DNA from: Pyrus communis
Taxonomy: Eukaryota > Streptophyta > Magnoliopsida > Rosales > Rosaceae
DNA length: 64,000 nucleotides
Assembly (NCBI RefSeq): GCF_963583255.1
Contig: NC_084806.1
Coordinates: forward strand, 21,184,317 to 21,248,316
Direction: 5' to 3'
The position numbers and the translations under genes were made by a program. Below the pieces are notes generated by a model that had not been told where the DNA came from, did not search any database, and saw only the letters and a program-made list of their open reading frames with translations. Below are positions 2,821 to 55,900 of this stretch, in pieces; the stretch's first letter is position 1; each line of letters starts with the position of its first letter.

Positions 2821-2826
2821 AATTTT

Positions 2827-2844
2827 TGGCGCCGTTGCCGGAGA
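2827..2844 (+). promoter_or_regulatory. Primer binding site for tRNA-Asp (E0)
   Basis: TGGCGCCGTTGCCGGAGA lies six bases after the LTR end. It complements the 3' end of plant tRNA-Asp with one mismatch (A for G at position 16). All other copies in the window have the perfect 18-base form. Confidence 0.85.
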
Positions 2845-2945
2845 TTAGTAACTTTGCTAATCCCTTGGATTGTTTACTTTCTGTTTATTTTATTTTGTTA
2901 AAGTTTCTGACCTTGTTTTGTTTTTCTTGTTTTAGGTACTAGTTT

Positions 2946-3375
2946 ATGACTCGGAGTTCCCAACTGATTCGTGAGCATATCTTGGACTTTGACGGCGATT
3001 TCGAGAGGACTTTGAGACGAAAGAGGAATCAACACGAATCAAATCCACCAAGCCCGGAACTTGACCTTGAAGAACAAGTTATAGAAGAGGAAGAAGAGGC
3101 TACGGATCAGATTTTTGAAGAAACACAAGGCATGGCCGTGGACAACCGGACACTCAAGGAGCTTTCTGCTTCGGGATTGGATAATGCCTAACCTTTGTGT
3201 ATCCAATATCCCACGCCTGCCCAAGGTAAGACCGAAGAGTTCGAGTTGAAGTCAAGTTTGCTCCACCACATTCCAAAATACCATGGGTTGTCCATGAAGG
3301 ACCTGAACAAGCATCTGAAAGAATTCGAAGTGGTGTGTTCAAGCATGATTCCTGTCAACGTCGATGGAAGTATTT
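2946..3375 (+). pseudogene. gag: Athila-type gag, N-terminal part, nonsense-mutated and truncated
   Basis: This is the only piece of a true retrotransposon Gag N-terminus in the window. It opens MTRSSQLIREHILD and later reads PLCIQYP, FELKSSLLHHIPKYHG and HLKEFEVVCSSM, which I recognise as the conserved core at the start of the plant Athila Gag (capsid precursor). Two breaks are visible. An in-frame TAA at 3189-3191 stands where the family has glutamine, consistent with a single C-to-T change. The frame is then cut at 3375, where the LTR of element U begins. No later gag or pol sequence follows in the window. The leader between the primer binding site and the ATG ends in TTGTTTTAGGTACTAG, which W and Z also keep. 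Confidence 0.8.
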
Positions 3376-5398: not shown

Positions 5399-5641
5399 AA
5401 TTCCCCCACACTTAGCTTTTGCTAGTCCTCGAGCAAAACAAAGAAATAAAACAGGACAAAACAAACAAACATAATCTAAACCTTCCAACGTTTGCCTCAG
5501 GGATTTCCAATGCACATGACATGTTAAAGATTATCATTCCCACAGATTTGAGTCAATTTAACACTTAAGCACATGCTTAATCATAGTCACTACTTACTAG
5601 TTCACAATTAACCAATTAAAACAATGTTTTGAATGTAGTAA

Positions 5642-6122
5642 TGATAGGAGCATATTCATGCGACTTAAATGGCTTGTTCTCGTACATTTACGTTATGTTT
5701 CTTTAGTTATTTTAGTTCTTTATGCTTCTTTTGTGTGTTTTTAGGTTCTAAGGGCTTAGGGAGCAAGAAAGTGCATTTTGAGGCTATTTGGAGCATTTTT
5801 GGGCATGGATTGGATAGCTTATCCATGGAGCCAAAAGGATGGACGAAATTGAAGGCCATTTATGCAATTTAGGACATACAACAAAGGGCCTAGCCCATTC
5901 TCTCTTAAACCAAACCCAAGGCCATGCATTTCCTTCCAATTCCAAAATCCACAATCACTTCAAAGCCATGCAAAACCTTTCAACATCCTTTAATCATTCC
6001 CTTTTAAGTTATGATTGTATTTCCTAACCCTACATGCATTATTTATTAGCATCTTCACATGCATTCATCATAATTCACCCTAGCTACCACCATTCACACT
6101 CACATGCATTCACACACACTTC
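5642..6122 (+). repeat. 5' LTR of Z, first segment
   Basis: The first 481 bases of the Z LTR, nearly identical to 58995-59475. It ends with ACTTC (6118-6122), the left target duplication of Y. The short ORFs here are LTR sequence and not genes. Confidence 0.9.
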
Positions 6123-8073
6123 TGATGCGAGAATTATACGCACACAAATTAAACCCTCTTTTTGACAATTGTAGTATAAGTATAAGTAGGGATCGTTCTT
6201 AACCGGGGATTAGGAGGGATTGCAAATCACTTGGAAACTGACTCAAAAACGTAAAAACACAATATAAAACACTATACTAGACTCAAAGAATGCAAAACTA
6301 AACTTTAAAACACTAAGACAAACCAAAAGACTCAAACATCACCCAAAACACTCAAAACTGCCTTAAAATCACTTTCTGGCCAGTTTTGAACACTTTGGTG
6401 AATTTGGACGAATTTGTGTAAGAAATTGAATCAAAACACTTATAAACACAAACTAAGACACTTTCTAACTAAATTGGACACTAAAGTAAAGGGGGATTAA
6501 GGTTTTGACGAAATTAAATTAAATGACAGATTGTAATTAAGGCAGAATGTAAATATGAATATGATGAAAAGTATGGATGAATGCTAGCTAAGGGGTTCAT
6601 CTCCACACATGTTACACTTGCATAATAAAACGATTTCCAATTGCATTTCAATAAACCATGAATTCTCAACACCCCGGGTTAATTAGGTCTGCTTAAATTA
6701 ACCGTCAAGTTTTCCTTAAGTTAATGAATTGGATGATTGCATACGACAACCCAAAGCATTCCCCACAAGTTCCCTACATGAATTGCATAATAGAGATACA
6801 AGCAAGAATCATTAAGTTCTTTGAAAACTATAAGTGTTGACGAGGCATTCGTTACTATGATTGCATGAAACTTATGCCAAGAATTTATTTAACGCGATTG
6901 TTTATAAGCAACCTCCACTACTTGTGAATATAAGTTCATAACTATTAGGTGAAACTCACTTATATTCTAGCGTCATATTCATGCATGAAAATTAAGCGTG
7001 CACTCTCAATAAACATACATAAATAGGTTATCAATAAAACAGTTAAACAAATTGAATTCACAACTTATGAAACGTAATTAGAAGTAATCAAATCAAAATG
7101 CAAGTATAAACATATATTTCGAATCACCCCCTAGCTAAGGGGGGTTTAGTTCTTCATAACATTGAAATCAAAGAAACACCTAAACATTCCAACAACTCAA
7201 ACTTGAATTGTATGAACGTTTAAGCACTCTTTTCTTCCATTCCTCAAACATACAAAACAAAGAGAATTGAATTTAAACATTGAAATCAAAGAAACACCTA
7301 AACATTCCAACAACTCAAACTTGAATTGTATGAACGTTTAGGCCCTCTTCTCTTCCTCTTTATTGTAGCACAAGGTCTAAGGATAGTTTGATGGTGTGAA
7401 TGGTTTGGGGAGTGGTTGGAGTGGCTGCAATGGAGGAGAAAAGTGTTTTGGTGGCTGCTGCAAGGGTGTGGAGAGGTTTTGACGAATTTCTGGAATATGG
7501 AAGAGTGAATGAGAATTGTGTATGGTTTTTATAGGGAGATGGATGGATGGGAGAGGGAACATGACAGCTAGGTTGCATGTGCAAATGCTGGAATTCTGAA
7601 ATGGTGATGGGAGATGCATGTGGCTGATTTATGCATGTGATTAAAGGGTGGGAGTGCATGTGCAATGAGTGGTGTTGTTGGTGTGTGAAAGTGGCTGAAT
7701 TGGTGGTGCATGTGATTAAAGAGTGAATGCATGTGTTGAATGATTTCTTGGTGAGGGAATGCATGTGCAAATGCATGTGGAATGTGGCTGCAATGATGAA
7801 AGAATAAAGGGTGCATGTGGGTTAATTAATGAAGGAAATGCATGTGCAATGACAATGTGTTAGAATGGATGTGTGTTATGCATGTTAAGTGATAAGTGAT
7901 AAGTGATGATGATAAGTGATAAGTGATAAGTGATGATGATAAGTGATAAGTGATTATGATAAGTGATATGATAAGTGATGATGATAAGTGATAAGTGATA
8001 TGATATGTGGTTATGATATGATAAGTGGTGATGATAAGTAATGATATGTGGGAGTGTGGCTGAAATGAAGGAG
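6123..8073 (-). repeat. 3' (left) LTR of Y, first segment
   Basis: This matches 41884-42612 followed by 50770-51985 of the right LTR with scattered substitutions. A TATA box on the minus strand lies at 7526-7533. The paired 46-nt hairpins lie at 7179-7224 and 7297-7342. A GATAAGT-type tandem array occupies about 7885-8045. The segment ends with AGGAG (8069-8073), the left target duplication of X. Confidence 0.9.
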
Positions 8074-9128
8074 TGATAGGAGCATATTTATGCGACTTAA
8101 ATGGCTTGTTCTCGTACATTTACGTTATGTTTCTTTAGTTATTTTAGTACTTTAAGCTATTTTCGTGTGTTTGTAGGTCCAAAGGGCTAAAGGAGCAAAA
8201 AGATGCATTTTGGAGACTTTTGGAGCACTTTTGGGCTAAGGACGGATAGCTTATGCTTGAAGCCAAAGTGTTGGACGAAATTGAAGACCTAATTCGAGCC
8301 AAAGTGTTGGAACCTTGTTCTCTTTAGTTTTAGGACATTTAAACCTTTCCTAATCCCAATCATGCCATGCATAACACACATCCATTCTAACACATTGTCA
8401 TTGCACATGCATTTCCTTCATTAGTTAACCCACATGCACTTATCACTTATCATCACCACATATCATATCACTTAATCACTTATCACTTATCATCACCACT
8501 TAACCACTTATCATATCATAACCACATATCATATCACTTAACATATCATCCACCTACTTCACCTACAACATCCACCTACTTCACCTACAACATCCACTTC
8601 ACCTACAACATCCACCTACTTCACCTACAACATCCACCTACTTCACCTACAAATGACATAGCCATATGTTCCCTCCACTACTCCTATAAATACCCTTGCA
8701 TTCATTCATTCATGGACATCTCATTTTCATACACAACACATTACAAACACATTCTCCCTTCCCTAGCCGTGAGCTTCCCATCTCTCCCCTTATAATCCAA
8801 ACACCATTTTTCCATTCCCCTTCCACTTCTACACCACTCCTCATCCATTTCCATAATCCCCCAAACCTCACCTTAGACCTTGTGCTACAACGAAGAGGAA
8901 GAGAAGAGGGCCTAAACGTTCATACAATTCAAGTTTGAGTTGTTGGAATGTTTAGGTGATTCTTTGATTTCAATGTTTCATTTTAATTCTCTTTGTTTTG
9001 TGCGTATGAGGAATGGAAGAGAAGAGTGCCTAAACGTTCATACAATTCAAGTTTGAGTTGTTGGAATGTTTAGGCGTTTCTTTGATTTCAAAGATATGAG
9101 GAAATAAAACCCCCTTTAGCTAGGGGGT
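8074..9128 (+). repeat. 5' LTR of X, first segment
   Basis: It begins TGATAGGAGCATATTTATGC. A tandem array of CCACCTACTTCACCTACAA units spans about 8550-8650. A TATA box TATAAATA lies at 8695-8702, and the paired hairpins at 8911-8956 and 9029-9074. It is nearly identical to 34547-35616 apart from one small gap in a tandem array near 8535. The last five bases (GGGGT) are the left target duplication of V. Confidence 0.9.
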
Positions 9129-10349
9129 TGATAGGAGCATATTCATGCGACTTAAATGGCTTGTTCTCGTGCATTTACGTTATGTTTCTCTCGTTATTTT
9201 AGTCCTTTATGCTTCTTTTGTGTGTTTTCAGGTTCTAAGGGCCTAGGGAGCAAGAAAGTGCATTTTGAGGCCATTTGGAGCATTTTTGGGCATGGATTGG
9301 ATAACTTATCCATGGAGCCAAGAGGATGGACGAATTTGAAGGCCTTGTATGCACTTGAAGACACAAAACAATGGCCCTAACCCAACACATAACACCTTGC
9401 CATGAGCTTAACACATTATACCATACAAACCAACCTATTTTAGGCCCATTCTATGTACTTAAACCCTAGCCCTTTAAACTAGTTCATTTATCAATTATCA
9501 AACCATTCACTTATCACTTCCATTCACTTATCACTCACCACATATCATTCATTTATCACTTAACATATCATTCATTTATCACTTAACATATCATACACTT
9601 ATCATAATCATTAACTTATCACTTATCATAATCATTCACTTATTCTTTCATCATTCAACCACCAATTCAACACATGCATTTCAAACCTTTCAACACCCTT
9701 TAATCATCCCCCTTTAAGTTATGATTTTATTTCCTAACCCTACATGCATTATTTATTGCATCTTCACATGCATTCACACACACTTTACACATTCAAACAC
9801 TAGCCAAACCGTGAGCTCCCATTCCTTTATGCCATTTTCAGATTTCCACCCACTAACCTAGTCATCAACACATGCACTTCCACCTTTCATCCACAATGAT
9901 TCATGATTCATTCACTTTGCATTCCCTTTGCAATTACACCCCACATGTCCATTTAATCATTCAACCACATTCCCATTAACCACAAAACAAATCACACAAC
10001 ACACCAACACACATGCATCCTGAAATTCTTTGCCTTGCAATCACATGCATTTCCCTTGACATTTTCAGCCATCACACTTCATCATTACACCACCATTCAC
10101 TCTTTAACCCACACACACTTCACACAAACAACATTCACATGCATTCACATGCATTTCCAACACAAAACACACTCAAAACCGTGGCCACCTTTGCATTTCA
10201 GGATTCCCATTTGCATTTTCAGATTTCCAGCTTTCCCTTTTATTTTCCAGCTTTCATTCTTCATCATTGCAGCCATTCCACATGCAATTCTCCATCATTC
10301 CTCCACACAAACACCTTAAACAAATAGCCATATACATCTCCACTCCTCC

Positions 10350-10357
10350 TATAAATA
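10350..10357 (+). promoter_or_regulatory. LTR promoter TATA box of V
   Basis: TATAAATA occurs in the context CTCCTATAAATACCC. The same context recurs at 8695 and 35172 (X), 60699 (T), 18327 (V 3' LTR), and inverted at 26216 and 33249 (X'). Y and W have TATAAAA at the same place. This conservation, about 220 bases upstream of the first hairpin, places the start of the genomic RNA shortly downstream. Confidence 0.65.
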
Positions 10358-10572
10358 CCCTTGCATTCCCATCATTCAAAACATCTCATTTTCATACACA
10401 ACACACCACAAACACTTCCATTCCTTCTCTTTGCCGTGAGTCCCCTTAGAATCCAAAACCATCTTTCCATTTCCACCACTTCCCAACCCTCCAAACCACT
10501 CCTCTACCATTTCCATAATCCCCCAAACCTCACCTTAGACCTTGTGCCATAATAAAGAGGAAGAGAAGAGGA

Positions 10573-10736
10573 CCTAAACGTTCATACAATTCAAGTTTGA
10601 GTTGTTGGAATGTTTAGGTGATTCTTTGATTTCAATGTTTCATTTTAATTCTCTTTGTTTTGTACGTATAAGGAATGAAAGAGAAGAGTGCCTAAACGTT
10701 CATACAATTCAAGTTTGAGTTGTTGGAATGTTTAGG
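10573..10736 (+). repeat. Pair of 46-nt hairpins in the V LTR
   Basis: Two copies (10573-10618 and 10691-10736) share the same 46-base inverted repeat, from CCTAAACGTTC to GTTTAGG. Pairing base i with base 47-i leaves only two mismatches and two G-U pairs, with a 2-nt loop. The pair lies downstream of the TATA box, so it should be in the transcript. Confidence 0.8.
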
Positions 10737-11715
10737 TGTTTCTTTGATTTCAACGTAATGAGGAACTAAAACCCCCTTTAGCTAGGGGGTGATTCGAAAT
10801 AAATGTTTATGCTTGCATATGAATTGATTAAACTTTCGTTGGAATTTCATAAGTTGTGGATTCAATTCGTTTAATTGTTTGATTGATAACTTATTTATGT
10901 ATGTTCATTGAGATTGCAAGCTTAATTTTCATGCATGAATATGACGCTAGAATATAAGTGAGTTTCACCTAAACGTTACGAACTTATATTCACAAGTAGT
11001 GGAGGTTGCTCATAAACAATCGCGTTAAACGAATTCTTGGCATAAGTTTCATGCGTATTCCATAGTAACGAATGCCTCGTCAACACTTATAGTTTTCATA
11101 ATGCTTAATGATCTTTGATTGTATCTTTATTGTGCTTTTCACGTAAAGGACTTTTGGAGAATGTGGTGAATTGCGTTGCGCTAACCCATCCAATTCATTA
11201 ACTTAAGGAGAACTTGACGATTAATTTAAGCGGACCTAATTAACCCGGGGCGTTGAGTTTCATAATTTATCGAAAGACCAACTGAGAATCAATCTTGTAT
11301 GCAAGTGTAACATGTATGGAGATGAACCCCTTAGCTATTCTATCATCCATTCATTCCATTTCATCAATTCCATATTTACATTCTGTCTAGTTTATTAACT
11401 TGTTTCGTTATTTCAATTTTCGTAAAAACCTCAATCCCCCTTTTGCTTTAATGTTCATTTTAGTTAGAATTCAATTTAGTTTGTGTTTTTAAAGCATTTT
11501 GAGTCTTTTGATTTGTTTTAGTGTTTTAAAGTTTAGTTTCGCATTCTTTGAGTCTAGTTTAGTGTTTTATATTGTTTTTACGTTTTTAAGTCAGTTTCCA
11601 AGAGATTAACAATCCCTCCTAATCCCCGGTCCAGAACGATCCCTACTTATACATATACTACAATTGACAAAAAGAGGGTTTAATTTGTGTGCGTATAAAT
11701 TCTCGCATCAAATTT

Positions 11716-11733
11716 TGGCGCCGTTGCCGGGGA
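11716..11733 (+). promoter_or_regulatory. Primer binding site for tRNA-Asp (V)
   Basis: TGGCGCCGTTGCCGGGGA lies six bases after the LTR. It is a perfect complement of the last 18 bases of plant tRNA-Asp including CCA, where minus-strand DNA synthesis would start. Confidence 0.92.
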
Positions 11734-11889
11734 TTAGCAACTTTGCTAATCCCTTGGTTCTTTTCTTTTTTTTTGTTTAGTTGTTTTCGTTTTAGTTTCT
11801 AAACTTAGTGTTGTTTTCTTTGTTTGTTGTTACTTTTGATATTTGATTTAGTTCTCTTTCTTTGATTTTAGGTACTAGAGAAGTAAGAT

Positions 11890-13224
11890 ATGGATTTTGC
11901 TAGCATTCAAGCTCAATTGGCAAATCTTACTTCTAAATTGTCGCCGTATGCCGAAAGGACCACAATGCAGAGTGTCCCTACATTTGGTGCTTCATATAGG
12001 CAAGGATTTCAAGCCAATCAATGTCCACAAAGAGATTGGAGGGATCATTCAAACTCTATATGGTGGGAAGATCAACAAGTTCAACGTGAAGCATATTGGC
12101 AACCATATGAGGAGTTTTGTTCAAGACCTATGCACCCACCACAACTTCATATGCAATATGCTCAATTAAATTCAAGTTCGCCAATAGATTATATTCAAAT
12201 TCTTAATGAAATAAATTCTTTGGCGCAGGGGTCACAAAATCAAGCCAAGGAGGCTCAACAAGAAGCATATTGGCAACCATATGAGGAGTTCAATACAACA
12301 CCTATGCAGCCACCACAACCTCCCCCACAACAATTCCAATCAAGTTCAAGTATGTCCATGGATAATGATAAAAATTTTCAATTACTAACCTCTTTGACGC
12401 AGGACGAACAAAATCAAGACAAGAAGTTGGGTAAATTGGACGAGCAATTTGGGCAGATTATGGAGTTCATGAAACAAATTCAAGAGCAAAGTGAACTTTC
12501 CAACTCAACTATTGAAAACTCGAAGGAAGATTTTGAAATCCATAATGCTATCACTTTGGGAAGTGCTATGGAGGTTGGAGCTGACCTAAAAATGTCCAAA
12601 CATAGCCTAGAAGTGGATGAAGAGCTGCTAATTGAGGAGGAGGAAGAAAACATGCACACGGCAAGGGTAGAACAACCCTTGCCGCAGCCCCCTAAGCCCT
12701 CTAAACCACCCACCACCAGTAAGGACGTCCCAATTTCATGTTATTCTGATGTTATTCCACCCAATGTCCCTTTTCCTAGCAGGTTTTTGATTCCCAACCA
12801 AGAAGAGAGTAAAAAGGACATCGTGGAAGCCTTCCCAAAGGTGCAAAATGCTATTCAAATTCTTGGTGCAACACAGCAAGTTTTAGATGGTGTTGAATTC
12901 TTCAAAGGACTTTGTACACCAAGAAGAATGATTCAAGAGAAGGTAGTGGCTGGAGAAGATGTAGAAGGCATCAAAGAGGACATATTTGAAACCACAATTC
13001 CCAAGGAAGTTGGATTTTATGACACGGGACAAGTCATAACTTTCGAAGGGGTGTTTATTCTGGAGTTCATTTTGGAGCACACAGGTAAGCCGCCTCCCCG
13101 AATTTCAATTTTCTTTTATACTAACATGTGGTTAATGATTCAGGCACCCAATCTGGAATTTAAACTATTACCGGATCATTTCAAGTATCACCGCCCATTC
13201 AAAGATAAATTCCATGCCGTTTGA
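11890..13224 (+). CDS. Collapsed gag-pol remnant ORF of V (444 aa)
   Basis: An intact ORF starting after the TTTTAGGTACTAG leader. The first 130 residues are Gln- and Trp-rich, with a duplicated YWQPYEEF unit (about residues 72-79 and 119-126). Residues near 175-215 (QFGQIMEFMKQI, SNSTIENSKEDFE) correspond to the C-terminal Gag of Athila elements, where I expect a form like GQIAEFVGQFRDQG. Then come VEQPLPQPPK and PPNVPFPSRF, also typical of that region. After about residue 370 the ORF jumps to PNLEFKLLPDHFKY, which resembles the linker before reverse transcriptase. The capsid core, zinc knuckle, protease active site and all of pol are missing. I read it as an internal deletion product that stayed open. 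Whether it is translated is unknown. Confidence 0.65.
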   Translation: MDFASIQAQLANLTSKLSPYAERTTMQSVPTFGASYRQGFQANQCPQRDWRDHSNSIWWEDQQVQREAYWQPYEEFCSRPMHPPQLHMQYAQLNSSSPIDYIQILNEINSLAQGSQNQAKEAQQEAYWQPYEEFNTTPMQPPQPPPQQFQSSSSMSMDNDKNFQLLTSLTQDEQNQDKKLGKLDEQFGQIMEFMKQIQEQSELSNSTIENSKEDFEIHNAITLGSAMEVGADLKMSKHSLEVDEELLIEEEEENMHTARVEQPLPQPPKPSKPPTTSKDVPISCYSDVIPPNVPFPSRFLIPNQEESKKDIVEAFPKVQNAIQILGATQQVLDGVEFFKGLCTPRRMIQEKVVAGEDVEGIKEDIFETTIPKEVGFYDTGQVITFEGVFILEFILEHTGKPPPRISIFFYTNMWLMIQAPNLEFKLLPDHFKYHRPFKDKFHAV

Positions 13225-13235
13225 TTTTATTTATG

Positions 13236-13248
13236 TAAAAAGAAAAAA

Positions 13249-13281
<33 letters not shown>

Positions 13282-13285
13282 AAAG
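13236..13285. repeat. A-rich tract between the converging ORFs of V
   Basis: About 50 bases of nearly pure A on the plus strand separate the stop of the gag-remnant ORF (13224) from the stop of the antisense ORF (13313). The same place holds an A- or T-rich tract in X (21819-21858), X' (30680-30716), Y (40673-40731), W (48448-48470) and Z (55127-55154). Confidence 0.85.
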
Positions 13286-13312
13286 ATACTAAACATAGAG
13301 AAAGGTGGAGCT

Positions 13313-13984
13313 TTACAAAGGTTGTTTGCGTGAAGCCCCACTACGAGGCGCAGAAGCGGAAGGCATAGAAGCGGGAGGCATAGAAGCGGGAGGCATCGGA
13401 GCGGAAGCCATCGGAGCGGGAGGCATCGGAGCTAGAGCATTCCAGGCCTCAATACTTGGCCAAGCGCTGGATGACCCAGGAAAAAGGTGCCTCTGTAGAT
13501 AAGACGCAAGCCTTTGACGGTCACTGTGAATTCGACCCTCAGATTCTTGCAGCTCATCAAGCTTCCTCTTCATCCCCGACGAATAGTTATTTGCAAGCAC
13601 ATGCAAACTTCTATTCTCGTACTTAAGCTGCTGGATCTCTTGCTTAAGTCTTTCCACCTCTGCCATCAACGATTCCACCTGACGGGAGCGGGCAAGCAGG
13701 CGTAGGCCCATGTTGGACACAGAGCTCGCACACTGAACACTAAGTGCGAGGGACTCTTGAACGGCCAACTCATCGGACCGTCCTGACAGCAGCCTACTAT
13801 CTTTTGGAGTGAGGAGGTTTTTAGCTACTATTGTAGCTGTTGTGGCGTCCTGCATCACAGAGTCTTCACCTGAAAGAGGACCGTTAGAAGATAAAAAAGA
13901 AGGGCGCCATACATTACCTTGACGGGGCGCAACCGGATCGCTGCTGAGACTCAAATCTAAGCTAAGGTTCGATGAGTTTGCCAT
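13313..13984 (-). CDS. Antisense coiled-coil ORF of V (223 aa)
   Basis: This ORF runs against the element's own RNA. I chose the ATG at 13984 because X' starts at the same place and the frame upstream has no earlier ATG. Residues 1-60 are Ser/Leu-rich (MANSSNLSLDLSLSSDP). Residues 68-95 are conserved (GRSDELAVQESLALSVQCAS). Residues about 95-165 form a predicted coiled coil with heptad Leu/Val/Ile and basic-acidic pairs (VESLMAEVERLKQEI, MKRKLDELQES). Residues 186-213 are repeats built on MPPAS/MPPAP, and the tail is RKQPL. No signal peptide, membrane segment or enzymatic motif is visible. I do not know its function. I have a vague memory of similar uncharacterised plant proteins, which is not evidence. 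Confidence 0.75.
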   Translation of the reverse strand: MANSSNLSLDLSLSSDPVAPRQGNVWRPSFLSSNGPLSGEDSVMQDATTATIVAKNLLTPKDSRLLSGRSDELAVQESLALSVQCASSVSNMGLRLLARSRQVESLMAEVERLKQEIQQLKYENRSLHVLANNYSSGMKRKLDELQESEGRIHSDRQRLASYLQRHLFPGSSSAWPSIEAWNALAPMPPAPMASAPMPPASMPPASMPSASAPRSGASRKQPL

Positions 13985-14100
13985 TTTTTTCAAAAGTGTT
14001 CAAAGAGAAAGGGTGGATGGAGTTAAAATTTCAAAGGGCCGGAGACGATGTTCAAGAATGGGAAATCTTCAGAGTGTGTATATTGGCGGTGATCGATAGC

Positions 14101-14449
14101 TCTATAAAATGCCAAGGCGACGCGTCCACCGATTCAAAGAGCCGGAATTTCCGGCGTAATTTAGGCGACGCGTTCTCGGCTTTTCAGAAGACGCGTTCAA
14201 CTTTGGCAAAAGATTTCTGACAAAGCTGAAAACACGTGGAGGCCATCATCGCAACTACACATCTTTAGCCGACAAGCGCAAAGTTCGGCGACGCTTTCTC
14301 TGCTTTTCAGAAAACGCGTGCAGCTTTGTCAAAATGAGCCGCATCTGCACTACCACGTGTCGTTCAGAAAGCGAAGGGGCGTCGTTCAGAAATCGAAGGG
14401 GCGCCTGCTCAGAAATCGAAGAGGCGTCTTCAAAGATCGAAGAGGCGCC
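14101..14449 (-). promoter_or_regulatory. Probable promoter of the V antisense ORF
   Basis: Read on the minus strand, a TATA-like ATTTTATAGAG lies at about 14100-14110, some 117 bases before the ATG. Upstream are two copies (14164-14212 and 14288-14337, 124 bp apart) of a module with GGCGACGC, CTTTTCAGAA and ACGCGT. Two CACGTG boxes follow (14233-14238, 14354-14359). Last come four tandem units of about 22 bp around AAATCGAAGGGGCGCC (14361-14449). This block is far richer in G+C than the surrounding sequence. Confidence 0.55.
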
Positions 14450-15370
14450 ACTATTTCAAAAAGCCGGATTTGCGGGATCAAAACGTCTGTCGACAAGGGT
14501 AAAAGAATGGTACCATCACTTGATATTATCTCTATATATGTCGACCTTCGTCTTTTATGGCAAGGCAAACCTGAAGAAAAATGCCTAACTCTCCCTCACC
14601 TCTGAGGGCGCACTCCCAGCAAAGCCTCTTGAAATACTCAATTTTTTCTCCCCCAAAGAAGATACCAGAAACCTGGAGTATAAATGAGGCAGAAGGAAAC
14701 GGTCGATCGAAGCATGTGGAGACAACCACAACAAATACATGTGCTGCTTCATTCGCCGTTTCTTCAAAAGCAAAGGTATCTCATATCATCAAGGTCTAAA
14801 GCAAAAGTATCTCATATCATGCTCTTTCCCTGTCTTTTTCTTTGTCCTTGTTCTTACTTGCATGGCAAAGTAAAAGAAGCAATCAGCCGGCACTTGGAGT
14901 CAGTCTTCCGATCTGGAGCCAACTGCCTGGAATCTATTCCTGATTGCTTACCTAGCGTTGCTCTCGAGTAGTCATCTTCAACGGTTGATACACTTCCAGA
15001 GAAGGGGCCACTTCTGCAACGGGGAGTAAGTAAGGCAAGTGAAAGTAGGGCATTGAAGCATGTAGAGACAAGCAATGCTGAGCTATCCTCTAACCCTCTT
15101 CAATACGAATTGGAGAGATTGAACAAAGAAACAGATAAAAGGAGGAAGCTCAGACCTTCGGGGGAGACCAAAAGAACCATCCTGCTGCCCAGTTCAAGAA
15201 GTAGCACAAAGGAAAATCAACAATGGGCAGAAACCAGTTCAAGAGTAAGCCTGTGGAATCACAAAGATCAAAGCCTCAATGCAATTACCAAGGAGAAGAT
15301 GGAATTTACACTCTATAACCAGATTTGCGTCTCTAAACTCTTCTCTTTGTTAATTACATTCTGCCATGTT
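14450..15370 (-). other. Conserved block with exon-like signals, antisense in V
   Basis: There is no long ORF. On the minus strand a second TATA-like site (CATATATAGAGATAATATC, 14523-14541) lies upstream of the promoter modules. Further upstream, 14952-15013 looks like a 62-bp exon: it is preceded by GCAG and followed by AG/GTAAGC. A second GTAAGAAC donor-like site lies near 14855. The same block occurs in X, X', Y, W and Z. It could be a captured host gene fragment or the 5' part of the antisense transcription unit. Confidence 0.4.
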
Positions 15371-17090
15371 TAGTATGTTTAAGTGCTTTTTGTGTATTTA
15401 CTTATGCTTTGTGTGAATCTATGCTTAAAACATTGAGGACAATGTTTGATTTAAGTGTGGGGGGGGTAACTAAGTATGTTGATGCAAATTCGTTGAATTT
15501 TATCACCCATAACTTCAAGTGTTGTTCCTTGATGTTTTAAATGTTTTTAAGGTGTTTTTTTTTTGTTTTGACTTAAAAATTCAAAAATCACATAAAAATT
15601 TGAAAAACATGTTTTGAAAATCCTAAAAAGAGTGTTTTGAGTCGTTTTTGTGTCGTAGGTCACCTTCCAACACAATGATGAGGATTTGGTTTGTAATTGC
15701 ATGACTGTTAAAAAGAGTTATAAACATGGATGAAAGTTTGATTTACTCTTGGTATATGCTTGGTTATGGTTATAATGTATGACTTCACATGCAATCATAA
15801 AAGAAAATTTCGTTTTTGTAACATGCTTGAAGGAAGGAACTCAAACTAAAGCTACATCCTTGTGAGACTTGAGCCTAAACGTTCTTTGGAGAGTTATATT
15901 CTGTGATTCTTTGTTTTCTAAAGTTGTTGCATGATCTCATTATTCCTTGCTTGGTTGCTACTTAGAATGCAATTGTATCATGATAGATCTAAATGCTAGA
16001 ACTTATATCCGTTTCATTCAAAGCATGACATTGAATTGCATAACATATATCAAGATGGAGTTGTGTAGTTGCCACCATAGCCAAATAGCCTTACTTCCCA
16101 TATTTCGTATATATTAGTTTTAACCCCGTTGAGCCTCGTTTAGCCTATTTTCTTTGCTAACCACTTCACCCCTTACCGAGCCTAGTGTAGGACAGTCCAC
16201 ACCCTTGTTCTTAAATGATAGTGAGCATGACTTAAATGAATTCCTTTTGAGTACATTATGAAAGAAAATGAGTGTGGGGGAGAATATTTTGTTCTTAAGC
16301 GTTTATGTATGTTTTGAGAGTCAAAAGAAAAAAAAAAAAAAAAAAAATTGTGAAAAACATATGAAAAAGAAAAACAGAAAAGAAAAGAAAGAAAGAAAGA
16401 AAAAAGAGCTTGTTCTCCCTTTTTGTTCAAAAGTTGAGTTTTCATTCAAAAGTGAATTCTAAGTTAATTCAAATTCTTTGCTCGCTATTTCTTTAAGAAC
16501 CTTTGTTTTTCCATATCCCTTCTTTGTTAGCCAAACACTTTTTAGCCCCGTTACACCCCTTTGACTTCTATCTTGATCGTTATGTGTTTAATAATGTGGA
16601 GTTTGGAATTGATATGAGCATATGGTGTCACTGGTTCTTGCATCTAAGTAGTAGCATTCCATTCATGAGATCATATCTAAACATGCTTATTAACTCCAGA
16701 AATTGCTCTCTTTATGATACATATATGTGAGTGTTCGTTTTCATATCAATCTTCTCACATGTAACTAGATTAGGGTGTGTAGTCAGAAAATCTGAGTGAA
16801 AATTGAGTACATATCTTGTAAGGAATTGAGCAAATTCTCTAAAGGCATGTTACTACATTCAAAATATAGTTTTAATTGCTTAATTGTGAATTAGTATGTG
16901 GTGACTATGATTAAGTATGTACTTAAGTGTAAAGATAACCAAAATCTGTGAGAATGATGATTTTTAACTTGTCATGTGCATTGGAAATCCCTAAAGACGG
17001 TTGTTGGAAGGTTTAGGTTGTGTTTTACGTGTTTAGTGTCGTTTTGTTTATTTGTTTTTATTCTGTTTTGCTCGAGGACTAGCAAAAGCT
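15371..17090 (+). other. Conserved non-coding 3' interior of V
   Basis: No gene is seen. The stretch holds two internal copies of the polypurine motif (AAGTGTGGGGGGGG at 15453-15466 and AGTGTGGGGGAGAA at 16271-16284). It also has an A-rich tract at 16327-16350 and, near 17070, GCTCGAGGACTAGCAAAAGC before the terminal tract. The same order of blocks is found in X', Y, W and Z. Confidence 0.7.
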
Positions 17091-17105
17091 AAGTGTGGGG
17101 GTATT
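17091..17105 (+). promoter_or_regulatory. Terminal polypurine tract of V
   Basis: AAGTGTGGGGGTATT directly precedes the 3' LTR, the expected start point of plus-strand DNA synthesis. It is identical in Z (58980-58994) and, inverted, in X', Y and W. Confidence 0.85.
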
Positions 17106-19687
17106 TGATAGGAGCATATTCATGCGACTTAAATGGCTTGTTCTCGTGCATTTACGTTATGTTTCTCTCGTTATTTTAGTCCTTTATGCTTCTTTTGTGT
17201 GTTTTCAGGTTCTAAGGGCCTAGGGAGCAAGAAAGTGCATTTTGAGGCCATTTGGAGCATTTTTGGGCATGGATTGGATAACTTATCCATGGAGCCAAGA
17301 GGATGGACGAATTTGAAGGCCTTGTATGCACTTGAAGACACAAAACAATGGCCCTAACCCAACACATAACACCTTGCCATGAGCTTAACACATTATACCA
17401 TACAAACCAACCTATTTTAGGCCCATTCTATGTACTTAAACCCTAGCCCTTTAAACTAGTTCATTTATCAATTATCAAACCATTCACTTATCACTTCCAT
17501 TCACTTATCACTCACCACATATCATTCATTTATCACTTAACATATCATTCATTTATCACTTAACATATCATACACTTATCATAATCATTAACTTATCACT
17601 TATCATAATCATTCACTTATTCTTTCATCATTCAACCACCAATTCAACACATGCATTTCAAACCTTTCAACACCCTTTAATCATCCCCCTTTAAGTTATG
17701 ATTTTATTTCCTAACCCTACATGCATTATTTATTGCATCTTCACATGCATTCACACACACTTTACACATTCAAACACTAGCCAAACCGTGAGCTCCCATT
17801 CCTTTATGCCATTTTCAGATTTCCACCCACTAACCTAGTCATCAACACATGCACTTCCACCTTTCATCCACAATGATTCATGATTCATTCACTTTGCATT
17901 CCCTTTGCAATTACACCCCACATGTCCATTTAATCATTCAACCACATTCCCATTAACCACAAAACAAATCACACAACACACCAACACACATGCATCCTGA
18001 AATTCTTTGCCTTGCAATCACATGCATTTCCCTTGACATTTTCAGCCATCACACTTCATCATTACACCACCATTCACTCTTTAACCCACACACACTTCAC
18101 ACAAACAACATTCACATGCATTCACATGCATTTCCAACACAAAACACACTCAAAACCGTGGCCACCTTTGCATTTCAGGATTCCCATTTGCATTTTCAGA
18201 TTTCCAGCTTTCCCTTTTATTTTCCAGCTTTCATTCTTCATCATTGCAGCCATTCCACATGCAATTCTCCATCATTCCTCCACACAAACACCTTAAACAA
18301 ATAGCCATATACATCTCCACTCCTCCTATAAATACCCTTGCATTCCCATCATTCAAAACATCTCATTTTCATACACAACACACCACAAACACTTCCATTC
18401 CTTCTCTTTGCCGTGAGTCCCCTTAGAATCCAAAACCATCTTTCCATTTCCACCACTTCCCAACCCTCCAAACCACTCCTCTACCATTTCCATAATCCCC
18501 CAAACCTCACCTTAGACCTTGTGCCATAATAAAGAGGAAGAGAAGAGGACCTAAACGTTCATACAATTCAAGTTTGAGTTGTTGGAATGTTTAGGTGATT
18601 CTTTGATTTCAATGTTTCATTTTAATTCTCTTTGTTTTGTACGTATAAGGAATGAAAGAGAAGAGTGCCTAAACGTTCATACAATTCAAGTTTGAGTTGT
18701 TGGAATGTTTAGGTGTTTCTTTGATTTCAACGTAATGAGGAACTAAAACCCCCTTTAGCTAGGGGGTGATTCGAAATAAATGTTTATGCTTGCATATGAA
18801 TTGATTAAACTTTCGTTGGAATTTCATAAGTTGTGGATTCAATTCGTTTAATTGTTTGATTGATAACTTATTTATGTATGTTCATTGAGATTGCAAGCTT
18901 AATTTTCATGCATGAATATGACGCTAGAATATAAGTGAGTTTCACCTAAACGTTACGAACTTATATTCACAAGTAGTGGAGGTTGCTCATAAACAATCGC
19001 GTTAAACGAATTCTTGGCATAAGTTTCATGCGTATTCCATAGTAACGAATGCCTCGTCAACACTTATAGTTTTCATAATGCTTAATGATCTTTGATTGTA
19101 TCTTTATTGTGCTTTTCACGTAAAGGACTTTTGGAGAATGTGGTGAATTGCGTTGCGCTAACCCATCCAATTCATTAACTTAAGGAGAACTTGACGATTA
19201 ATTTAAGCGGACCTAATTAACCCGGGGCGTTGAGTTTCATAATTTATCGAAAGACCAACTGAGAATCAATCTTGTATGCAAGTGTAACATGTATGGAGAT
19301 GAACCCCTTAGCTATTCTATCATCCATTCATTCCATTTCATCAATTCCATATTTACATTCTGTCTAGTTTATTAACTTGTTTCGTTATTTCAATTTTCGT
19401 AAAAACCTCAATCCCCCTTTTGCTTTAATGTTCATTTTAGTTAGAATTCAATTTAGTTTGTGTTTTTAAAGCATTTTGAGTCTTTTGATTTGTTTTAGTG
19501 TTTTAAAGTTTAGTTTCGCATTCTTTGAGTCTAGTTTAGTGTTTTATATTGTTTTTACGTTTTTAAGTCAGTTTCCAAGAGATTAACAATCCCTCCTAAT
19601 CCCCGGTCCAGAACGATCCCTACTTATACATATACTACAATTGACAAAAAGAGGGTTTAATTTGTGTGCGTATAAATTCTCGCATCA
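17106..19687 (+). repeat. 3' LTR of V
   Basis: It has the same length as 9129-11710, and every landmark is shifted by exactly 7977. The hairpins are at 18550-18595 and 18668-18713, with TATAAATA at 18327-18334. GGGGT follows it, completing the target duplication. Confidence 0.95.
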
Positions 19688-19692
19688 GGGGT

Positions 19693-20604
19693 GATTCGAA
19701 ACTATGTTTATATTTGCAATATGAATTGATTAACTTTCGTTGGAATTTCATAAGTTGTTGATTCAATTTGTTTAACCGTTTGATTGATAGCTTATTTATG
19801 TATGTTTATTAAGAATGCGCGCTTAATTTTCATGCATGAATATGACGCTAGAATATAAGTGAATTTCACCTAATCGTTATGAACTTATATTCACAAGTAG
19901 TGGAGGTTGCTTATAAACAATCGCGTTAAACGAATTCTTGGCATAAGTTTCATGCGTATTCCATAGTAACGAATGCCTCGTCAACACTTATAGTTTTCAT
20001 GTTGCTTAATGATCTTTGATTGTATCTTTATTGTGCTGTGCACGTAAAGGACTTTTGGAGAATGTTGTGAATTGCGTTGCGCTAACCCATCCAATTCATT
20101 AACTTAAGGAAAACTTGACGGTTAATTTAAGCGGACCTAATTAACCCGGAGTGTTGAGTTTCATAATTTATCGAAAGACCAACTGAGAATCAATCTTGTA
20201 TGCAAGTGTAACATGTGTGGAGAAGAACCCCTTGGCTATTCCATCATCCATATTTTCATCACATTTATATTTACGTTTTGCCTTTAATTACAATTTGTGC
20301 AATTTAGCTAATTTCGTCAAATCAAACCCCCCCTTTACTTTCCTGTTCTTTAGTGCTTAGAATCTGTTTAGTTTATGTTTTAAAGTATTTTTTTGCTTTT
20401 TGGTTTGTCTTAGTGTTTTAAACTTTAATTTTGCATTCTTTGAGTCTAGTTTAGTGTTTTAAACTTTATTTTACGTTTTTGAGTCAGTTTCCAAGAGATT
20501 TGCAATCCCTCCTAATCCCCGGTCCAGAACGATCCCTACTTATACTTATACTACAAATCGACAAAAAGAGGGTTTAATTTGTGCGCGTATAAATTCACGC
20601 GCCA
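19693..20604 (+). repeat. 5' LTR of X, second segment
   Basis: This continues the LTR from GGGGT/GATTCGAAACTATG and matches 35617-36529. Its end reads ACGCGCCA where the 3' LTR has CTCGCATCA, so the terminal bases have mutated. The bases 19688-19692 are the right target duplication of V. Confidence 0.9.
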
Positions 20605-21892: not shown

Positions 21893-22564
21893 TCACAAAG
21901 GTTGTTTGCGTGAAGCCCCACTACGAGGCGCAGAAGCGGAAGGCATAGAAGCGGGAGGCATAGAAGCGGGAGGCATCGGAACGGAAGCCATCGGAGCGGG
22001 AGGCATCGGAGCTAGAGCATTCCAGGCCTCAATACTTGGCCAAGCGCTGGATGACCCAGGAAAAAGGTGCCTCTGGAGATAAGACGCAAGCCTTTGACGG
22101 TCACTGTGAATTCGACCCTCAGATTCTTGCAGCTCATCAAGCTTCCTCTTCATCCCCGACGAATAGTTATTTGCAAGCACATGCAAACTTCTATTCTCGT
22201 ACTTAAGCTGCTGGATCTCTTGCTTAAGTCTTTCCACCTCTGCCATCAACGATTCCACTTGGCGGGACCGAGCAAGCAGGCGTTGGCCCATGTTGGACAC
22301 AGAACTCGCACACTGAACACTAAGTGCGAGGGACTCTTGAACGGCCAACTCATCGGACCGTCCTGACAGCAGCCTACTATCTTTTGGAGTGAGGAGGTCT
22401 TTAGCTACTATTGTAGCTGTTGTGGCGTCTTGCATCACAGAGTCTTCACCTGAAAGAGGACTGTTAGAAGATAAAAAAGAAGGGTGCCATACATTACCTT
22501 GACGGGGTGCAACCGGATCGCTGCTGAGACTCAAATCTAAGCCAAGGTTCGATGAGTTTGCCAT
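21893..22564 (-). CDS. Antisense coiled-coil ORF of X (223 aa)
   Basis: It has the same length and architecture as the V copy. Replacements are few and lie mostly outside the coiled coil: Gly in SSNLGLDLS, His in VWHPSF, Ser in SSNSPLSG, Asp in VAKDLL and Val in MASVPM. The coiled-coil core (RQVESLMAEVERLKQEIQQL) is unchanged. It stays open although the gag remnant next to it carries a stop. Confidence 0.72.
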   Translation of the reverse strand: MANSSNLGLDLSLSSDPVAPRQGNVWHPSFLSSNSPLSGEDSVMQDATTATIVAKDLLTPKDSRLLSGRSDELAVQESLALSVQCASSVSNMGQRLLARSRQVESLMAEVERLKQEIQQLKYENRSLHVLANNYSSGMKRKLDELQESEGRIHSDRQRLASYLQRHLFPGSSSAWPSIEAWNALAPMPPAPMASVPMPPASMPPASMPSASAPRSGASRKQPL

Positions 22565-29968: not shown

Positions 29969-30640
29969 ATGGCAAACTCATCGAACCTTAGCTTAGATTT
30001 GAGTCTCAGCAGCGATCCGGTTGCGCCCCGTCAAGGTAATGTATGGCGCCCTTCTTTTTTATCTTCTAACGGTCCTCTTTCAGGTGAAGACTCTGTGATG
30101 CAGGACGCCACAACAGCTACAATAGTAGCTAAAAACCTCCTCACTCCAAAAGATAGTAGGCTGCTGTCAGGACGGTCCGATGAGTTGGCCGTTCAAGAGT
30201 CCCTCGCACTTAGTGTTCAGTGTGCGAGTTCTGTGTCCAACATGGGCCAACGCCTGCTTGTCCGCTCCCGTCAGGTGGAATCATTGATGGCAGAGGTGGA
30301 AAGTCTTAAGCAGGAGATCAAACTGCTTAAGCATGAGAATAGAAGTTTGCACGTGCTTGCCAACAACTATTCGACGGGCATGAAGAGGAAGCTTGATGAG
30401 CTGCAAGAATCTGAGGGTCAAATTCACAGTGACCGTCAAAGGCTTGCGTCTTATCTCCAGAGGCACCTTTTTCCTGGGTCATCCAGCGCTTGGCCAAGTA
30501 TTGAGGCCTGGAATGCTCTAGCTCCGATGCCACCCGCTCCGATGGCTTCCGCTCCGATGCCTCCCGCTTCTATGCCTCCTGCTTCTATGCCTTCCGCTTC
30601 TGCGCCTCGTAGTGAGGCTTCACGCAAACAACCTTTGTGA
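29969..30640 (+). CDS. Antisense coiled-coil ORF of X' (223 aa)
   Basis: It starts with ATG in GAAAAAAAATGGCAAAC. In the coiled coil it has the SLKQEIKLLKHENRSLHVL variant shared with W, and STGM for SSGM, while the outer parts follow V. This mosaic suggests recombination between subfamilies. LLVRSRQ replaces LLARSRQ, GQIHSD replaces GRIHSD, and the tail reads PRSEASRKQPL. There are no stops or frameshifts. Confidence 0.72.
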   Translation: MANSSNLSLDLSLSSDPVAPRQGNVWRPSFLSSNGPLSGEDSVMQDATTATIVAKNLLTPKDSRLLSGRSDELAVQESLALSVQCASSVSNMGQRLLVRSRQVESLMAEVESLKQEIKLLKHENRSLHVLANNYSTGMKRKLDELQESEGQIHSDRQRLASYLQRHLFPGSSSAWPSIEAWNALAPMPPAPMASAPMPPASMPPASMPSASAPRSEASRKQPL

Positions 30641-39965: not shown

Positions 39966-40658
39966 ATGACTAACTCATCGAACCTTAGCTTAGATTTGAG
40001 TCTCAGCAGCGATCCGGTTGCGCCGCGTCAAGGTAACGTATGGCGCCCTTCTTTCTTATCTTCTAACGGTCCTCTCACAGGTGAAGACTCCGTGATGCAG
40101 GACACCACAACAGCTACAATAGTAGCTAGGAACCTCCTCACTCCAAAAGATAGTAGGCTGCTGTCAGGACGGTCCGATGAGTTGGCCGTTCAAGAGTCCC
40201 TCGCACTTAGTGTTCAGTGTGCGAGTTCTGTGTCCAACATGGGCCAACGCCTGCTTGCCCGCTCCCGTCAGGTCGAATCATTGATGGCAGAGGTGGAAGG
40301 TCTTAAGCAAGAGATCCAGCAGCTTAAGTACGAGAATAGAAGTTTGCATGTGCTTGCAAATAACTATTCGTCGGGCATGAAGAGGAAGCTTGATGAGCTG
40401 CAAGAGTCTGAAGGTCGGATTCAAAGCGACCGTCAGAGGTTTTCGGCTTATCTCCAGAGGCACCTTTTTCCTGGGTCATCCAGCGTTTGGCCAAGTATTG
40501 AGGCCTGGAATGCTCTAGCTCCGATGCCTCCCGCTCCGATGCCTTCCGCTCCTATGTCTTCCGCTCCGATGCCTTCCGTTCCGATGCCTTCTGCTCCTAC
40601 GCCTTCCGCTTCAAGAGTATTGCCACGTAGTGGGGCTTCAAGCAAACAACCTCTGTGA
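39966..40658 (+). CDS. Antisense coiled-coil ORF of Y (230 aa)
   Basis: It starts MTNSSNLSLDLSL. The coiled coil reads VEGLKQEIQQLKYENRS and the following part QSDRQRFSAYLQRHLFPG. The repeat tail is longer and different from V (units such as APMPS, APMSS, VPMPS) and is followed by RVLPRSGASSKQPL. W shares the VLPRSG addition, so Y and W tails form one subtype. Open throughout. Confidence 0.72.
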   Translation: MTNSSNLSLDLSLSSDPVAPRQGNVWRPSFLSSNGPLTGEDSVMQDTTTATIVARNLLTPKDSRLLSGRSDELAVQESLALSVQCASSVSNMGQRLLARSRQVESLMAEVEGLKQEIQQLKYENRSLHVLANNYSSGMKRKLDELQESEGRIQSDRQRFSAYLQRHLFPGSSSVWPSIEAWNALAPMPPAPMPSAPMSSAPMPSVPMPSAPTPSASRVLPRSGASSKQPL

Positions 40659-47748: not shown

Positions 47749-48426
47749 ATGGCAAACCCATCGAACCTTAGCTTAGAATTGAGTCTCAGCAGTGATACGG
47801 GCGCGCCGCGTCAAGGTAACGTATGGCGCCCTTCTTTCTTATCTTCTAACGGTCCTCTCACAGGTGAAGACTCCGTGATGCAGGACGCCACAACAGCTAC
47901 AATAGTAGCTAGGAACCTCCTCACTCCAAAAGATAGTAGGCTGCTGTCAGGACGGTCCGATGAGTTGGCAGTTCAAGAGTCCCTCACACTTAGTGTTCAG
48001 TGTGCGAGTTCTGTGTCCAACATGGGCCAACGCCTGCTTGCCCGCTCCCGTCAGGTGGAATCATTGATGGCAGAGGTGGAAAGTCTTAAGCAGGAGATCA
48101 AACTGCTTAAGCATGAGAATAGAAGTTTGCACGTACTTGCCAACAACTATTCGACGGGCATGAAGAGGAAGCTTGATGAACTGCAAGAGTCTGAAGGTCG
48201 GATTCAAAGTGACCGTCAAAGGTTTTCGTCTTTCCTCCAGAGGCACCTTTTTCCTGGATCATCCAACGTTTGGCCAAGTATTGAGGCCTCGAATGCTCTA
48301 TCTTCGATGCCTCCAGCTCCGATGCCTTCCGCTCCTATATCTTCTGCACCGATGCCTTCCGTCCCGATGCCTTCCACTTCAATAGTTTTGCCACGTAGTG
48401 GGTCTTTAAGTAAACAACCTTTGTGA
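47749..48426 (+). CDS. Antisense coiled-coil ORF of W (225 aa)
   Basis: The most diverged intact copy. The N-terminus reads MANPSNLSLELSLSSDTGAP, then LALS becomes LTLS, and the coiled coil is SLKQEIKLLKHENRS. FSSFLQRHLFPGSSNVWPS leads to a short repeat tail (MPPAPMPSAP) and IVLPRSGSLSKQPL. Length, heptad pattern and the motif DELAVQES are kept. A T-run follows the stop at 48448-48470. Confidence 0.72.
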   Translation: MANPSNLSLELSLSSDTGAPRQGNVWRPSFLSSNGPLTGEDSVMQDATTATIVARNLLTPKDSRLLSGRSDELAVQESLTLSVQCASSVSNMGQRLLARSRQVESLMAEVESLKQEIKLLKHENRSLHVLANNYSTGMKRKLDELQESEGRIQSDRQRFSSFLQRHLFPGSSNVWPSIEASNALSSMPPAPMPSAPISSAPMPSVPMPSTSIVLPRSGSLSKQPL

Positions 48427-48561
48427 AGCCTCCATCGTTCTGCCATGTTTTTTTTTTTTTTTTTTTTTTTTGTTTTCAAGAAGCTTTGTTTTATTCGGTG
48501 CATTGGGTTGCCTCCCAAGTAGCGCTTTCTTTTACGTCTTGCAGCCGGACGAAGAACCCAA

Positions 48562-48606
48562 TCACTCCAGGATATGTTCACGAATCGGATGAGAACTCCG
48601 AGTCAT
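48562..48606 (-). pseudogene. First 14 codons of gag with a stop (W)
   Basis: On the minus strand the short frame MTRSSHPIREHILE ends in TGA. It aligns with the start of the E0 gag (MTRSSQLIREHILD) and sits at the same distance from the tRNA-Asp site, after TTTTAGGTACTAG. All later gag and pol sequence is deleted. Confidence 0.75.
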
Positions 48607-48707
48607 GAACTAGTACCTAAAACAAGAAATAAAACAAGATTAAGAATCTGGAATAAAATAAAAACAAACGAAAATAAAACAATCCAAGGGATTAGCAAAT
48701 TTTCTAA

Positions 48708-48725
48708 TCCCCGGCAACGGCGCCA
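48708..48725 (-). promoter_or_regulatory. Primer binding site for tRNA-Asp (W)
   Basis: A perfect 18-base match on the minus strand. Confidence 0.9.
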
Positions 48726-55123: not shown

Positions 55124-55156
<33 letters not shown>

Positions 55157-55183
55157 ATACTAAACATGGAGAAAGATGGAGCT

Positions 55184-55900
55184 TCACAAAGGTTGTTTAC
55201 GTGAAGCCCCACTACGAGGCATCGGAGCGGAAGGCATAGTAGCGGAAGGCATCGAAGCGGAAGGCTTTGAAGCGGAAGGCATCGGAGCGGAAGTCATCGA
55301 AGCGGAAGGCATCGAAGCGGAAGGCATCGGAGCGGGAGGCATCGGAGCTAAAGCATTCCAGGCCTCAATACTTGGCCAAGCGCTGGATGAGCCAGGAAAA
55401 AGGTGCCTCTGGAGGAAAGACGAAAACCTTTGACGGTCACTGTGAATCCGACCTTCAGACTCTTGCAACTCATCGAGCTTCCTCTTCATCCCCGACGAAT
55501 AGTTATTTGCAAGCACATGCAAACTTCTATTCTCGTACTTAAGCTGCTGGATCTCTTGCTTAAGTCTTTCCACCTCTGCCGTCAACGATTCCACTTGGCG
55601 GGACCGAGCAAGCAGGCGTAGGCCCATGTTGGACACAGAGCTCGCACACTGAACACTAAGTGCGAGGGACTCTTGAACGGCCAACTCATCGGACCGTCCT
55701 GACAGCAGCCTACTATCTTTTGGAGTGAGGAGGTTCCTAGCTACTATTGTAGCTGTTGTGGCGTCCTGCATCACAGAGTCTTCACCTGAAAGAGGACCGT
55801 TAGAAGATAAAAAAGAAGGACGCCATACATTACCTTGACGGGGCGCAACTGGATCGCTGCTGAGACTCAAATCTAAGCTAAGGTTCGATGAGTTTGCCAT
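55184..55900 (-). CDS. Antisense coiled-coil ORF of Z (238 aa)
   Basis: The longest copy; the extra length is in the C-terminal repeats (MPSAS, MTSAP, KPSAS, MPSAT and similar five-residue units). I take the ATG at 55900 by analogy with V. The coiled coil reads VESLTAEVERLKQEIQQL with Thr for Met, followed by FSSFLQRHLFPGSSSAWPS as in W. It is therefore a V-type front with a W-type joint. Open throughout. Confidence 0.72.
   Translation of the reverse strand: MANSSNLSLDLSLSSDPVAPRQGNVWRPSFLSSNGPLSGEDSVMQDATTATIVARNLLTPKDSRLLSGRSDELAVQESLALSVQCASSVSNMGLRLLARSRQVESLTAEVERLKQEIQQLKYENRSLHVLANNYSSGMKRKLDELQESEGRIHSDRQRFSSFLQRHLFPGSSSAWPSIEAWNALAPMPPAPMPSASMPSASMTSAPMPSASKPSASMPSATMPSAPMPRSGASRKQPL

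Follow-up and report, generated by a model that had tools for sequence, protein, structure and literature searches.

Why should long terminal repeat (LTR) retrotransposons that lack pol keep an intact gene on the strand opposite to their genomic RNA? The question is raised by a 64,000-nucleotide stretch of the Pyrus communis genome (GCF_963583255.1, contig NC_084806.1, positions 21,184,317 to 21,248,316; hereafter the window), in which six elements, V, X, X', Y, W and Z, each carry an antisense open reading frame (aORF). An earlier note, made from the letters of this DNA, had described six intact frames of 223 to 238 codons and proposed selection for a protein with a role in trans or in the host, with recent amplification as the alternative. 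An ORF check of the window confirmed the frames, all six of which are open from ATG to stop (Table 1). We consider it probable that the aORF is a selected accessory gene of the kind termed aORF-3R, which would form a cassette with its own upstream DNA, encode a coiled-coil nuclear regulator and have been exchanged between the Athila and Tat lineages.

Selection on the antisense protein

The six aORFs stayed jointly open in 82 of 5,000 neutral simulations (1.6% expected), which were run along the six aORFs' own tree with 134 substitutions and no indels. None of the 150 aORF copies listed from the genome (487 Mb) contains a stop, but these are the best-scoring 150 of 4,155 candidates and are not counted as evidence of conservation, and the sense ORF is likewise open in 103 of the 113 copies listed. 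Because openness is common to the best-scoring aORFs and the sense ORF, it is weak evidence when taken alone. A full-length, uninterrupted aORF was also present in 19 of 20 elements taken down the sense-ORF list, the exception being the frameshifted copy in L062; in this sample, which comprises young copies only, most family members retain the aORF. Three copies (L023, L024 and L038) have a common stop at aORF codon 170, after the coiled coil, and L023 and L024 have one at codon 203 too; they appear to belong to a subfamily that amplified while encoding a truncated protein.

Selection was assessed on 56 aligned aORF copies (205 codons kept; maximum-likelihood tree of 44 copies after near-duplicate removal), with ratios of nonsynonymous to synonymous substitution (dN/dS) taken from pairs by the Nei-Gojobori method (NG86) and combined with branch lengths by codon position. 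The dN/dS check suggested by the earlier note came out in favour of selection: all 15 pairs of window aORFs fall well below 1 (0.12-0.34), as against 0.49-0.74 for six pairs of sense ORFs (from V, X', Y and L027). Three non-overlapping aORF pairs differ by 40 nonsynonymous and 53 synonymous changes, so that 40 of 93 are nonsynonymous where about 70% would be expected neutrally (P = 5e-8), and the changes at codon positions 1, 2 and 3 number 25, 16 and 52. Two sense-ORF pairs have 223 nonsynonymous and 86 synonymous changes, a difference from the aORF with P = 5e-7, or P = 0.004 with the close pair X'-L027 only. The lower aORF ratios and these counts therefore indicate that the antisense protein is more constrained than the product of the sense ORF.

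The same holds beyond the window. Comparisons between ten aORF groups gave dN/dS of 0.17-0.35 in 36 of 45 cases; V-type copies gave 0.205 against Tat-type copies, 0.169 against the copy in L026 and 0.17 among themselves. Constraint is stronger along internal than along terminal branches of the aORF tree, the branch length at codon positions 1 and 2 relative to position 3 being 0.46 and 0.79, respectively. Purifying selection on the aORF protein is thus supported as far as substitution patterns can tell, and they indicate that the aORF is a real protein-coding accessory gene of Ty3/gypsy LTR elements. Had the copies simply multiplied recently, the frame would be open without any function. The identical LTRs of V, the stop-free top-scoring aORFs and the largely open sense ORF all fit recent amplification, which explains the many young open copies; it does not explain the low aORF ratios beside the higher sense-ORF ratios of the same elements, the deficit of nonsynonymous changes, or the conservation that persists across Athila- and Tat-type copies, where dS exceeds 1. 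We regard amplification alone as very improbable.

Gag-pol partners and probable exchange between lineages

Twenty 10-kb regions were chosen to span the aORF subfamilies. In L026, a single open frame (1924-7398, 1,825 codons) contains gag, reverse transcriptase (RT), RNase H and integrase domains, with no second RNase H in the domain scan; it is followed by the antisense aORF (8001-8678), with the 3' LTR beyond. The LTRs of L026 are identical across the 1,904 bp compared, are flanked by the target duplication CCGAC, and are 81-93% identical to the V LTR, which places the element in the V family. L012 has gag and an integrase preceded by a second RNase H (RVT_3 / RNase_H); the aORF comes next, with an LTR after it, and 411-bp repeats of 96% identity enclose the stretch from gag to aORF. 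L014 and L016 are collinear with L012 (92-93% identical through pol, 88-89% across the aORF). A second RNase H before the integrase marks Tat elements and its absence marks Athila elements. By this domain rule rather than an RT tree, L026 would be Athila-type and L012, L014 and L016 Tat-type, the second RNase H having been read in L012 and the other two loci assigned by their collinearity with it. In both L026 and L012 the aORF lies antisense between pol and the 3' LTR, as aORF-3R genes do. For L019-L024, the ORF list of the 8 kb towards pol, viewed without a Pfam scan, had no entry recognisable as gag-pol.

Two further features were seen at the Tat-type loci. An antisense ORF near the pol of L016 (3432-4097, + strand) matches Transposase_28 (PF04195) weakly (22.4 bits, cut-off 26.2); it sits in a stretch absent from L012, and similar ORFs occur in L010 and L017. 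Between the integrase and the aORF, L014 (5999-6967) and L016 (6869-7447, both in element orientation) contain tandem repeats readable as KASHTLDQDSVKQNQ-like units.

Leaving A-rich runs aside, the V interior resembles the ten Tat-type loci L009-L018 in DNA at three blocks only, namely the aORF core (68-73% identity), V 14493-14651 (7 of 10 loci, 67-76%) and V 14769-14987 (9 of 10 loci, 78-80%). L010 lacks the latter two blocks, and L018 additionally carries a separate V-type copy. The gag-pol of L026 has no blastn match to that of the Tat-type loci, and the proteins are 33% identical in RT and 31-36% in integrase. Cassette DNA of 67-80% identity, made up of non-coding sequence and a fast-evolving accessory gene, set against pol sequences similar only as protein, suggests that the aORF and about 1 kb of upstream DNA were exchanged after the lineages split, and recombination may have moved them between Athila and Tat. 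The same contrast speaks against vertical inheritance of a cassette already present in a common ancestor of Athila and Tat, which we consider improbable.

On a smaller scale, comparisons of close elements indicate that aORF alleles recombine among them. The aORFs of L005, L006 and L008 are identical (672/672) despite sense regions of 93-97% and upstream regions of 97-98% identity, a comparison biased by the choice of L002-L008 for their aORF similarity. L002 and X' have flanks 99.6% and 99.0% identical, yet the aORFs between them are only 96.6% identical, and the aORF of X' is a mosaic, W-type at nucleotides ~240-420 and V-type in the remainder. The coiled-coil replacements that the earlier note had cited as conservative (ERLKQEIQQL against ESLKQEIKLL) do exist, but the contrast amounts to this single W-type recombinant patch in X'.

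Given such recombination, the constraint seen in pol-less elements may have acted elsewhere, and this is the main rival to selection in those elements themselves. The aORF would then be useful only with gag-pol, and pol-less alleles would be renewed by template switching without being needed. The exchanges just described and the presence of an aORF beside gag-pol in L026 fit this explanation, which is possible although we think it rather unlikely: the window copies stand at dS 0.14-0.30 from L026, the sole gag-pol-bearing copy compared, and all seven young V-like copies examined (1.5-kb flanks) adjoin a gag remnant and none adjoins pol. The earlier proposal is supported in part, for selection; a product that works in trans or on behalf of the host stays conjectural. 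Because elements without pol, which need it in trans, kept the aORF, a freely shared product is disfavoured, import of alleles by recombination being the rival reason for this retention. If the aORF is instead a selected accessory gene, as we favour, its product would help its carriers spread, and pol-less elements would keep it for that reason.

The predicted protein and its upstream region

The protein-database and structure searches proposed by the earlier note returned no match above threshold and one long modelled helix. The AlphaFold2 model (41 sequences; mean predicted local distance difference test, pLDDT, 66.7) has a helix of 95 residues at 72-166, mostly with pLDDT above 90, a disordered N-terminus (1-45), short helices and a disordered tail, and the product may be a coiled-coil dimer. 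In Pfam and NCBIfam every match fell far short of the curated cut-off, most being to coiled-coil models; sequence searches of the PDB gave nothing at E 0.01, with E 0.15 for the best single-sequence match, and Foldseek found two PDB matches only (E 6.6 and 9.7). PF04195 (TRP28 / Transposase_28) was detected neither in three window aORFs (E up to 10) nor in 41 family members (E up to 0.01). The named rows among the best 120 of 1,845 homology matches are from Malus only. In NCBI, several Pyrus family proteins (P0004, P0006, P0007, P0009, P0010, P0026 and others) bear the name "S ribonuclease" or "S2-RNase"; as the family shows nothing RNase-like, these names look like carried-over annotation.

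The N-terminus reads LSLDLSL, or is LDLSL-like, in V-type, Ath2-type and most M-type copies. The ethylene-responsive element binding factor-associated amphiphilic repression (EAR) motif is given as LxLxL or DLNxxP in excerpts of PMC6283911 and PMC9956375. Of 56 aORF copies, which are related rather than independent, 35 have strict LxLxL in their first 30 residues, compared with 4% in shuffles, and 53 have a relaxed form; the Tat-type N-termini, LDLNV or FDLNV, fit neither form. An EAR-like N-terminus would fit a product acting in the nucleus on element transcription or silencing.

An alignment profile of 30 upstream regions has three conserved blocks and a sharp end at about 14985. This ~1 kb of DNA probably controls the aORF, which may be transcribed off its own antisense promoter; two TATA-like boxes are candidates (Table 1). 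Among the copies shown, AATAAA follows the stop at +70 in six of Tat type and at +102 to +112 in three of M type, and was not found in three of Ath2 type, two of them with a flank of no more than ~100 nt. A coding reading of block 14769-14987 was set aside, as V has a stop there in all six frames. That reading is likely but not certainly wrong, because L025, L041, L019 and L017 have one or two stop-free sense frames in the block and one 110-nt stretch has uneven phases against Tat-type copies (e.g. 11, 11, 3). A search of 9000-20000 against Rfam returned no match at gathering scores.

The conservation of this upstream DNA bears on the idea that the antisense RNA, not a protein, is what matters, through double-stranded RNA or interference with the genomic RNA. 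The aORF is antisense to the genomic RNA, the upstream non-coding block at 78-80% equals or exceeds the core in conservation between lineages, and antisense RNA is discussed for other elements in the part of PMC7264820 consulted. An effect of RNA does not predict low dN/dS or the excess of third-position changes, however, and we hold it to be unlikely.

Several observations weigh against a selected aORF-3R gene exchanged between lineages. Stops, absent from the top-scoring young copies, are frequent in old ones; by eye, ~40 of ~150 listed rows are stop-free. The other nine of the 45 group comparisons gave dN/dS of 0.36-0.61, all of them among M1, M1b, M2, M3, Tat and Tat2, and the M, Tat and Tat2 groups are mostly decayed copies. 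Within eight groups other than the V-type, dN/dS is 0.39-0.90, which is what decay of copies once inserted would produce. NG86 takes no account of transition bias and tends towards dN/dS values that are too low, although the sense ORF is affected equally, and recombination among elements blurs where selection acted. No primer-binding site was recognised in L026, so this copy is incomplete. Y, W and Z have no AATAAA close to the stop; in these three it appears only at +204 to +244. Finally, of 222 database proteins only 45 have strict LxLxL among their first 60 residues; the EAR reading of the N-terminus is therefore weak and serves as a lead only.

Window elements and known accessory genes

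The features of the window are collected in Table 1. Element V is flanked on both sides by the target duplication GGGGT. The primer-binding sequence TGGCGCCGTTGCCGGGG occurs at seven places in the window, the seventh at 62010; we take it to be of tRNA-Asp type and a trait of the Athila lineage, to which the LTR family of the window would then conform. The sense ORFs of the window match the L026 gag-pol in two separated stretches (30-44% identity; 31-34% for V). None of the window elements has pol; V, X' and Y keep two ORFs, and W and Z keep the aORF alone. The sense ORF had been noted as missing from some elements, and indeed there is none in W and no gag-like one in Z. These two have one junction in common (48427-48709 and 54898-55183), at which the sense-ORF region is gone and the leader, aORF and 3' part are left, with the primer-binding site ~280-300 bp from the aORF.

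Table 1. Features of the window, with positions counted from its first letter
Feature	Position	Strand	Remarks
aORF of element V	13313..13984	-	223 aa, ATG at 13984
aORF of element X	21893..22564	-	223 aa
aORF of element X'	29969..30640	+	223 aa; V-type with W-type patch in coiled coil
aORF of element Y	39966..40658	+	230 aa
aORF of element W	47749..48426	+	225 aa; element without sense ORF
aORF of element Z	55184..55900	-	238 aa; element without gag-like sense ORF
5' LTR of V	9129..11710	+	from LTR comparison
3' LTR of V	17106..19687	+	identical to 5' LTR of V
Primer-binding site of V	11716..11734	+	presumably tRNA-Asp type
Sense ORF of V	11890..13224	+	444 aa, gag-pol remnant
Conserved aORF upstream region, candidate antisense promoter	13985..14987	-	blocks 14035-14284, 14535-14659, 14760-14984
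Proximal antisense TATA-like box TTTTATAGAG	14100..14109	-	~120 nt before ATG; from alignment
Distal antisense TATA-like box GACATATATAGAG	14530..14542	-	from alignment; absent from L010, degenerate in L017
AATAAA, possible poly(A) signal of V aORF	13226..13231	-	+84 after stop

The six elements are nested in each other across 5642-62004, several of them within the LTRs of relatives. A sense-strand ORF at 55973-56779 (+) overlaps an aORF upstream region and has no Pfam match; sense ORFs of 228-287 aa occupy the equivalent place in L025-L028. The label of large retrotransposon derivative (LARD), defined in the part of PMC4668562 consulted as conserved non-coding DNA in place of the coding region, was rejected for these elements: pol is missing, yet ORFs are kept in V, X', Y, W and Z.

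Plant LTR elements are already known to carry antisense accessory ORFs of the aORF-3R kind, placed between pol and the 3' LTR, with maize Grande gene23, rice RIRE2, Silene Retand ORF4 and bean PvRetro13 as examples in excerpts of PMC7264820 and PMC11963269. Grande gene23 is described in the former as having a transcript from an upstream promoter and a nuclear product, and the pear aORF would compare with it in the first respect if its candidate promoter is active. In recently active Retand elements, some of which are non-autonomous, antisense TRP28 ORFs are reported in 97% of clusters and some other ORFs match Smc (PMC11963269, in part); by this description, Retand resembles the pear elements in its long region between pol and the 3' LTR, antisense ORFs, tandem repeats and some coiled-coil (Smc) ORFs. 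In contrast to these systems, the pear aORF belongs to another protein family, given the lack of a TRP28/PF04195 match, stands beside both Athila- and Tat-type pol, and is retained in pol-less derivatives. A closer parallel for its spread is found in bdelloid rotifers, where ORF3 types common to unrelated retroelements were read as gene sharing (PMC5408684); there too one accessory ORF occurs across distinct retroelement lineages, but, as far as the abstract tells, these ORFs encode enzymes, lie in sense orientation and have no co-moved promoter reported. HODOR, a high-copy LTR element of ~9.2-9.7 kb in apple and also in pear (excerpts of PMC6901071 and PMC13334179), is similar as far as its description goes.

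The consulted text of PMC11963269 mentions Rosaceae, Malus and Pyrus nowhere and Athila once, in a lineage list; that of the pear LTR survey PMC4668562 does not mention "antisense". The titles and abstracts surveyed on the topic contain no report of one antisense ORF common to Athila and Tat. What appears new here, in that we have not found it described, is the unrecognised protein family and its distribution across the two lineages.

Taken together, the aORF and ~1 kb of upstream DNA probably form a cassette, which lies antisense between pol, or a pol remnant, and the 3' LTR. A bolder and quite tentative extension would make the aORF a mobile gene in mobile elements: a recombining Athila/Tat cassette with a promoter of its own, spreading as alleles among the elements and kept past the loss of gag-pol. 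Its product would be a coiled-coil adaptor whose EAR-like tail engages the TOPLESS corepressor or the silencing machinery of the host on behalf of the elements; if so, it would be the sole gene kept in W and Z. For years, antisense accessory ORFs have been on record in plant LTR elements with no function assigned to them. The pear aORF allows a comparison between two lineages, and between elements with gag-pol and derivatives stripped of nearly all else, which makes testable what it does for an element that gave up pol. It is also an apparent case of an accessory gene that moved between retrotransposon lineages with its control region.
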